Made by a program: the position numbers and the translations under genes. A DNA stretch of 64,000 nt from Ruegeria sp. ANG-S4. Lineage in GTDB: Bacteria > Pseudomonadota > Alphaproteobacteria > Rhodobacterales > Rhodobacteraceae. Below the pieces are notes generated by a model, which had not been told where the DNA came from, made no database searches, and saw nothing but the letters and a program-made list of their open reading frames with translations. Positions within the stretch are counted from its first letter, which is position 1. Each line of letters begins with the position of its first letter. Below, in pieces: positions 58,422-64,000 of this stretch. The stretch covers positions 496,001 through 560,000 of the forward strand of contig NZ_JWLK01000005.1 in assembly GCF_000814005.1 (NCBI RefSeq), written 5' to 3'.

Positions 58422-58465
58422 CAGCCTCTTATCAGTTGAAGAATTTGACCAAATGGAGCAGTGAC

Positions 58466-59182
58466 ATGCGCATACTACTTGTCGAGGATGATCCCACAAC
58501 GTCCAAAAGCATCGAATTGATGCTGACCCATGCAAACTTGAACGTTTATGCGACGGATCTCGGCGAAGAAGGTATCGATCTGGCAAAGCTCTATGATTAC
58601 GACCTGATTCTGCTGGACCTGAACCTGCCGGATATGAACGGCCACGAAGTTCTGCGGCAGCTTCGTATAGCAAGGGTCGAGACGCCAATTCTCATTTTGT
58701 CCGGCGCGGATGACACCGAAAGCAAGATCAAGGGCTTCGGATTCGGGGCAGATGACTATCTGACAAAGCCATTTCATCGCGAAGAACTGGTTGCCAGAAT
58801 TCACGCCATCATCCGGCGCTCCAAAGGGCATTCCCAATCAGTCATTCACACAGGCCGGGTGGCTGTGAATCTGGATGCCAAAACAGTCGAAGTCGAAGGC
58901 AAGACCGTCCATCTGACTGGAAAAGAATACCAAATGCTCGAATTGCTGAGCCTTCGAAAGGGGACAACCCTGACGAAAGAGATGTTCCTCAATCATCTTT
59001 ATGGTGGCATGGATGAGCCAGAACTGAAAATCATCGACGTGTTCATTTGCAAATTGCGAAAGAAACTCAGCAACGCGACTGGTGGCGAGAACTATATCGA
59101 AACGGTTTGGGGCCGGGGATACGTTCTGCGCGATCCACAAGCTGCGGCCAATTCCGAAACGCGCATGGCTGTCGGGGCCTAG
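58466..59182 (+). CDS. ctrA: Cell cycle response regulator CtrA
   Basis: The 238-residue OmpR-family regulator begins [20 protein letters not shown], has phospho-acceptor Asp51 in [13 protein letters not shown], and the winged helix [20 protein letters not shown] with [20 protein letters not shown] and [20 protein letters not shown], ending in the short tail AVGA. In Rhodobacterales CtrA activates flagellar and gene transfer agent expression rather than being essential. The ATG after GGAGCAGTGAC is used; an in-frame TTG upstream is not. Its presence with a GTA lysis pair 44 kb away fits that role. Confidence 0.97.
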
Positions 59183-59291: not shown

Positions 59292-63643
<4,352 letters not shown>

Positions 63644-63650
63644 GCAGGAA

Positions 63651-63685
63651 GTTCCGCAAAGTTCACAAATGTTCTTAAAAAGTTC
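63651..63685 (+). promoter_or_regulatory. LexA-type SOS box array upstream of a small membrane peptide gene
   Basis: GTTC occurs at 63651, 63661, 63671 and 63682, with spacing of 10, 10 and 11 bases. The last pair is GTTC-TTAAAAA-GTTC (63671-63685), which fits exactly the alphaproteobacterial LexA operator GTTC-N7-GTTC known from Rhodobacter. It lies 70 bases before the 63755 ATG and just after recG. Confidence 0.75.
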
Positions 63686-63754
63686 TTTACCGACTCGGAA
63701 AAATGTGAGAACAAAAGAGCAACAGAGGATTAAACCCTGACCGGAGGTGAGACC

Positions 63755-63877
63755 ATGCTGACCCAGATCAAGACCGCATTCTGCCGCTCGCAAGCCACGT
63801 TTTTGCAAGATGCCGTGGGTGCCGTCTCTTTGGTGGTCATGCTGGTGGTTGCCCTTCACCTGCCGATGGGGTTCTAA
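63755..63877 (+). CDS. Short SOS-controlled membrane peptide (40 residues)
   Basis: A perfect ribosome site (CCGGAGGTGAGACC) precedes this ATG. The 40-residue product begins MLTQIKTAFCRSQATFL, then DAVGAVSLVVMLVVALHLP forms a single membrane helix, ending MGF. Codon choice is like its neighbours. It follows recG by 110 bases that carry a LexA-type box. Caulobacter has a 29-residue SOS-induced inner membrane division inhibitor, SidA; a similar role here is inference from size, topology and control, not from sequence identity. Confidence 0.72.
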   Translation: MLTQIKTAFCRSQATFLQDAVGAVSLVVMLVVALHLPMGF

Positions 63878-64000
63878 GCCTTTCTGCCTGCGATCTCGTG
63901 CCGTTCAACCCGCGTATGTCATCCCCATTTCAGTCAAGGGTGACCTGCCTGTCCCAAACCCCTTGAGGGGCCTGCCTCGGCCCCACGCGGATATCCGGAT
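63878..64000. other. End of window without a recognised gene
   Basis: No coding frame is supported. CCCCTTGAGGGG and GGGGCC-TGCCTC-GGCCCC (about 63960-63984) form GC-rich hairpins without T tracts, possibly the beginning of a terminator or the 3' edge of the next gene. Confidence 0.3.

Follow-up and report, generated by a model that had tools for sequence, protein, structure and literature searches.

A two-box SOS-type locus behind recG in Rhodobacteraceae joins a 40-residue membrane peptide, a candidate SidA-like division inhibitor, to a structured 3' RNA

Introduction

Directly downstream of recG in Ruegeria sp. ANG-S4 lies a short locus in which a pair of LexA-type boxes around a predicted promoter, the gene of a 40-residue single-helix membrane peptide and a conserved structured RNA follow one another. 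We read this locus as a single transcription unit in the SOS response of Rhodobacteraceae, one that would make a SidA-like division brake and carry, in its 3' UTR, an RNA possibly acting in trans; we put the probability of this reading as a whole at about one half. Rhodobacteraceae, model organisms among them, abound in the sea, and the locus, present in at least 259 of the 296 genomes sampled, is a strong candidate SOS division inhibitor for them; the family may have a damage checkpoint of its own. The RNA that follows the peptide gene would represent a new family of RNAs linked to DNA damage, and the promoter with its fixed pair of boxes could be put to use as an SOS reporter in Rhodobacteraceae.

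Small membrane proteins that are induced by the SOS response and inhibit late division are described from Caulobacter, Bacillus, Staphylococcus and Mycobacterium in the available parts of two papers (PMC4211646, PMC13396833), and loss of lexA in Caulobacter leads to extreme filamentation through sidA, according to the available part of a third (PMC12700426). In titles and abstract openings we found no SOS division inhibitor named for Rhodobacteraceae; at the same depth, in a literature set with few subscription journals, there was no description of the peptide or the RNA. The part of a D. shibae LexA paper at hand gives predicted sites at lexA, recA, dprA and at flagellar, pilus and GTA genes, and the word "recG" is absent from its main text. 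The main text of an R. pomeroyi small-RNA paper does not contain "helicase", "MarC", "SOS", "LexA" or "DNA repair", nor does that of a Paracoccus small-RNA paper contain "helicase", "recG", "SOS" or "LexA".

Results

Two boxes in opposite orientation frame the predicted promoter of the locus (positions are those of the window, i.e. the whole stretch of 64,000 nucleotides analysed). Box 1, GTTCTTAAAAAGTTC, is a GTTC-N7-GTTC site at 63671..63685 on the forward strand; the initial annotation had placed a LexA operator here, and the box is indeed present; 30 of 31 genus loci keep its spacing exactly, the sole inexact copy (locus L032) being one base shorter. It abuts TTTACC (63686..63691, forward strand; TTTAC in most relatives), marked as a predicted -35 by column conservation. 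Box 2 (63709..63723, reverse strand) reads GAACAAAAGAGCAAC on the forward strand and GTTG-N7-GTTC on the reverse, and overlaps the predicted -10. We take 63686-63691 to be the -35 and the region ending GAGAAC to be the -10 from the sigma-70 consensus. Box 2 has the form GAAC-N7-[C/G]AAC in all 31 genus loci, and the starts of the two boxes are 38 bp apart, GTTC-N7-GTTC coming first and GAAC-N7-CAAC second, around the predicted promoter.

Counted from box 1 at 0, the array is fixed: GTTC at -10, box 1, then TTTAC, then TGAGAAC opening box 2 at +38. Wider comparisons used 210 loci selected for the operator plus a peptide-profile match, in which the fixed pattern bases are 100% by construction; eight duplicates were dropped, leaving 202 distinct loci, and 199 enter the base table. 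The third half-site, 10 bp upstream of box 1 (63661..63664, forward strand), reads GTTC in 180 of 210 loci, with a per-base conservation of 88-94% over 199 operators; its 10-bp step differs from the LexA spacing. A further GTTC stands at 63651. The upstream repeats at 10-base steps reported earlier are thus both present, and while the -10 copy is kept across loci, the -20 copy is conserved only weakly.

A single GTTC-N7-GTTC occurs three times in the window against 2.95 expected, and 226 times in the genome, where the reversed pattern has 157 copies. We rejected a single box as sufficient evidence on account of this chance-level count in the window; box 1 is taken as real because it is conserved across loci, and not by its count. 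The exact two-box pattern is found in 225 of 296 family genomes, against two (G094 and G283) for a reversed-pattern control, and nearly always once per genome, with three matches in G107. A class sample holds it in six of 289 genomes, five Rhodobacteraceae and one other, and this lone match outside the family (1 of 284) looks like chance. Where one LexA operator had been annotated, box 1 therefore holds up, and a second box and the structured RNA downstream had been missed.

At the outer half-site of box 2 (63720-63723), 189 of 210 loci read CAAC and 7 of 210 a perfect GAAC; box 2 is perhaps a weak site, since it so nearly always carries CAAC, as if a weaker second site had been selected. The lexA and recA genes of this genome are preceded by boxes of the same type as the peptide operator: GAACATGCGTAGAAC lies close upstream of lexA, and recA has GAACAAGAGGCGAAC, which box 2 resembles. 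Caulobacter likewise has GTTC-N7-GTTC as its LexA motif, with a lone box at about 97% of its SOS promoters, as given in the available part of PMC12700426; set against that figure, the fixed pair of boxes suggests tight control. The locus has, over its predicted promoter, an operator of the GTTC-N7-GTTC type that defines alphaproteobacterial LexA regulons. LexA (SOS) control of the peptide locus, as initially proposed, is strongly supported by this comparison of sequences and in our view highly probable.

The gene upstream, which we take to be recG (696 aa; 61553..63643, forward strand), directly precedes the peptide module. In 117 of 119 fetched loci, tblastn with the protein of this genome found recG, and in recG-bearing loci 111 of 115 operator matches are on the recG strand; the four on the opposite strand we take to be the palindromic form of the pattern. 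From the last codon of recG to box 1 the median distance is ~30 bp (range 9-545). Among the matches listed there are 80 named loci, from genera that we take to be Rhodobacterales or from unclassified Rhodobacteraceae or alphaproteobacteria; recG is adjacent in 79 (in the remaining locus the stretch ends 22 bases from the operator), and the peptide exceeds 10 bits in 77, the other three being two loci cut by the locus end and one Paracoccus form.

Further upstream, the protein at 59304-61556, presumably an NAD-dependent DNA ligase, overlaps recG. Upstream of this putative ligase gene lies a response regulator (58436-59182), presumably CtrA, which ends ~4.6 kb before the peptide locus. The neighbourhood thus joins cell-cycle and repair genes.

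The peptide gene itself (63755..63877, forward strand) is an ATG frame for a 40-residue single-helix membrane peptide, with the Shine-Dalgarno sequence GGAGG ahead of it (63743..63747, forward strand); a Shine-Dalgarno-like core is found in 201 of 210 loci and in 86 of 210 after one shuffle each. Over 31 Ruegeria sequences the 40-codon frame has a dN/dS of 0.139, indicating purifying selection, the length is 40 residues in 31 of 31, and variable columns concentrate at the third codon position (37, versus 20 and 12 at the others). Stops interrupt each of the five other frames over the peptide in 7 to 31 of the 31 sequences, the antisense frames in 15, 22 and 31; the antisense frame with stops in 22 has a pN/pS of 0.38, which can happen as a side effect opposite a constrained frame. 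T15, D19, G22, L30, L34, H35 and P37 are invariant in an alignment of 25 rows taken from 59 loci (A2). That the frame is a translated peptide is all but certain. The tiny gene with a ribosome site and one membrane helix that had been annotated is thereby confirmed, and the proposed check, conservation of frame and box in relatives, was passed with the frame in 31 of 31 genus loci, box 1 in 30 of 31 and box 2 in 31 of 31.

A hydrophobic segment with a 17-residue mean hydropathy above 1.6 is present in 210 of 210 loci, a result biased by the selection of this set with the peptide profile. Ahead of the helix there are on average 2.5 K/R and 2.1 D/E residues, and behind it both are ~0, while charges inside the helix core average 0.03 per 17 residues. 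AlphaFold2 predicts a single helix over residues 2-39 (mean pLDDT 80, pTM 0.44). As a very short protein with one membrane helix, it resembles the SidA/DidA type in form. In three Paracoccus loci (L157, L205 and L219; 3.5 to 11.9 bits) the peptide is shortened to 31 residues and part of its N-terminal half is gone, which suggests that the helix is the working part.

These properties bear on whether the peptide could be a type I toxin of the TisB kind, i.e. an SOS-induced inner-membrane peptide that lowers the membrane potential and brings about dormancy. An SOS-type operator, 40 residues and one helix would all suit such a toxin. The TisB helix has charges inside it, and charges in the membrane span are the mark of a TisB-like toxin; an amphipathic helix with such charges was not found in the 210 loci, and the near absence of charges in the core makes a charged pore unlikely. 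E. coli does have the SOS-controlled peptides TisB and DinQ, but toxins of this kind are called amphipathic in the available part of PMC11997105. The single copy at a fixed core locus, with no match in plasmid or phage collections, speaks against it as well. We regard a toxin as unlikely, and the depolarising toxin that the initial annotation had offered loses ground accordingly.

No Pfam, NCBIfam or PHROGs profile matched the peptide; three of 25 members touch an NCBIfam transporter subunit, at a best E of 0.04. We found no related solved structure in the PDB, and the plasmid and phage collections held no relative at E 0.01. One copy per genome, a fixed locus behind recG and the lack of plasmid or phage matches argue for a core gene and against an addiction module.

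The peptide occurs in 37 of 37 genus genomes with no internal stop and is absent from the 24 genomes of other families in the same sample. Searching with the single sequence recovers it from 177 of 296 family genomes, and the 25-row profile from 249 of 296, with one match each. In the class sample (289 genomes, comprising five Rhodobacteraceae and 284 others) all five profile matches are Rhodobacteraceae; the count of 0 of 284 outside the family does not speak to Caulobacter specifically. Among the 47 family genomes that lack a profile match, 13 have the exact operator pair, and all nine of these 13 that were read have, as judged by eye, a short frame downstream of the operator that encodes a hydrophobic stretch; reading found one further copy in genome G238, also without a profile match. 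The gene is hence in at least 259 of 296 family genomes, 249 by profile and 9 + 1 by reading. In 33 of 296 there is no profile match, exact operator pair or read copy, a group in which losses, divergence and assembly gaps are pooled.

Behind the peptide gene, the genus alignment is highly conserved from the stop codon to a strong terminator. This region is a conserved, multi-branch structured RNA with CUGYC motifs (63881..64000, forward strand) that continues to 64027, outside the window, where the intrinsic terminator also lies (~64028-64063, forward strand), as seen in locus L009 (RNA and terminator at L009 1627-1808). We take the RNA to be the 3' UTR of the peptide message, because many copies start a few bases after the stop codon. 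A covariance model finds one copy in this genome (G000:C16:559881-560027), and a terminator of that shape lies at most 330 nt away in 161 of 210 loci.

When 12 chosen sequences are folded to minimum energy, most take on a long closing stem with inner hairpins. Covariation was counted on a structure-blind alignment (A3; 14 of 26 hand-picked stretches, and the source of the structure tested on it), giving 22 compensated cells versus 5.3 shuffled and 4-8 slid, and on a 65-sequence alignment fitted to RNA model R1 (A4), giving 202 versus 40.7 shuffled and 26-56 slid. In the 65 sequences pairing stands at 90-96% in five of the six helices; the short GAC/GUC hairpin is 71% paired and is not supported by covariation. 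Each RNA holds on average 4.08 copies of the motif CUG[C/U]C, versus 0.84 after dinucleotide shuffling (161 RNAs), and the motif is unpaired to 0.68 versus 0.41 elsewhere (132 RNAs). Mean folding z is -2.46 for the sense and -1.56 for the antisense strand (n=67), negative on both.

Model R1, given 100 of 139 operator loci (most of the omitted ones from the genus), found the RNA in 65, 13 of them training sequences; model R2 found it in 60 of the 80 named loci, among the matches listed, a set that includes genera from its training. Under strict filters, 91 of 199 family genomes have the RNA by R2 at E 0.01, and the class scan matched three of 192 genomes, each of them one of the Rhodobacteraceae. 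In 91 of 91 the RNA lies behind the peptide: in 84 by coordinates, 2-183 bases after the listed peptide or operator, and in seven by reading. These seven all have the peptide, with an operator that is exact in three, off by one in spacing in two and slightly decayed in two. Beyond the 31 loci of the genus set, a profile of the UTR matches 137 of 179 at E up to 1; many of these matches cover the terminator only, and some of the loci are named Ruegeria records. In two loci Rfam gave no match at gathering; in five loci there were nine Rfam matches at E up to 5, all below the cut-offs and elsewhere in the loci.

The compensated structure and the intrinsic terminator make this element a candidate 3' UTR-derived small RNA, and we consider it likely to be functional; that it acts in trans falls just short of an even chance. 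We also considered pairing of the RNA with its own ribosome site and rejected it: the cognate duplex is at -28.2 versus -28.0 swapped, and with n=133 at -21.5 versus -22.6 and -22.4 shuffled. Pairing no better than chance is a further point against a toxin of the TisB kind.

It may also be asked whether the locus is primarily an SOS-induced small RNA gene, with the structured RNA as its chief product and a peptide that plays a minor part or modulates the targets of the RNA. Covariation on both alignments, the mostly unpaired CUGYC motifs at 4.08 per RNA against 0.84 shuffled and the terminator in 161 of 210 loci all favour it. The peptide, however, is clearly under protein-level selection and is more widespread than the RNA (249 of 296 versus 91 of 199 genomes, by methods and filters that differ), and we consider this reading improbable.

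Discussion

We suggest that the locus works as follows. In the undamaged cell LexA would occupy both box 1, next to the -35, and box 2, over part of the -10, with a repression that the anatomy suggests to be tight. DNA damage would lead to RecA-driven cleavage of LexA, freeing the promoter for a short mRNA of 347 nt, given the assumed start site. From its strong ribosome site the 40-residue peptide with its one nearly uncharged helix would be made; we speculate that it packs against a membrane partner in the division machinery, much as SidA acts on FtsW, and holds septation until repair is done. The 3' UTR would fold into a multi-hairpin RNA with repeated CUGYC, closed by the strong terminator, which may persist as, or be processed to, a small RNA pairing in trans with target messages. 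Damage would thereby be answered at both the protein and the RNA level; titles and abstract openings of the literature yielded no two-level checkpoint of this kind.

By analogy, we give even odds to the peptide being a brake on the divisome. This is favoured because the family-wide single copy, the double SOS operator and the uncharged helix resemble SidA, and because small membrane proteins of the SOS response have repeatedly been turned against late division proteins in other bacteria, as the available parts of PMC4211646 and PMC13396833 describe. The SidA-like checkpoint put forward in the initial annotation fits the same three features. More tentatively, and with rather lower confidence, we propose a family-wide SOS transcript of dual function, in which a division-stopping peptide is joined to a new multi-loop small RNA that reprograms messages after damage.

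The peptide might instead be an SOS-induced regulator of some other membrane protein, such as a respiratory complex, a protease or the kinase CckA, which controls CtrA and gene transfer agents. The putative ctrA that ends ~4.6 kb upstream would suit such a partner, and so would the action of LexA on the cckA gene of R. capsulatus that the available part of PMC6473078 cites. The conserved D19, G22 and H35 likewise suggest a specific partner. To this possibility we attach a low probability. A helper of GTA or prophage lysis, which had also been considered, is suggested by the SOS-type operator and by gene transfer agents being common in Rhodobacteraceae, but it gained no support and is very improbable, with recG found in 117 of 119 loci and the peptide matching neither PHROGs nor phage records.

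Comparison with known systems

The closest parallel on the RNA side comes from the same family: UdsC of Rhodobacter sphaeroides is a small RNA from the 3' UTR of the mRNA of a hypothetical protein and is matured with RNase E, according to the available parts of PMC9779115 and PMC8625941. UdsC is 67 nt long and RpoHII-dependent, whereas the RNA described here is ~180 nt with its terminator, multi-branched and under a LexA-type promoter; we rejected identity of the two on size and promoter. TisB and DinQ of E. coli, in the sources as far as available, are SOS-linked single-helix peptides with RNA control; here, by contrast, the RNA is a sense 3' UTR and not an antisense RNA, the helix lacks inner charges, and the locus is a conserved core locus.

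A further likeness is to the small integral membrane proteins that are induced by damage and block late division, namely YneA, SosA and ChiZ (available part of PMC13396833), although YneA and ChiZ carry an outside LysM domain and the peptide here has almost nothing beyond its helix. SidA of Caulobacter crescentus is, like the peptide, a tiny inner-membrane protein of an alphaproteobacterium with LexA-type control (available part of PMC4211646), with 29 residues versus ~40 here. The likeness to SidA and DidA is drawn from their description; compared with SidA, the two operators, the recG locus and the structured 3' RNA are features of the locus described here.
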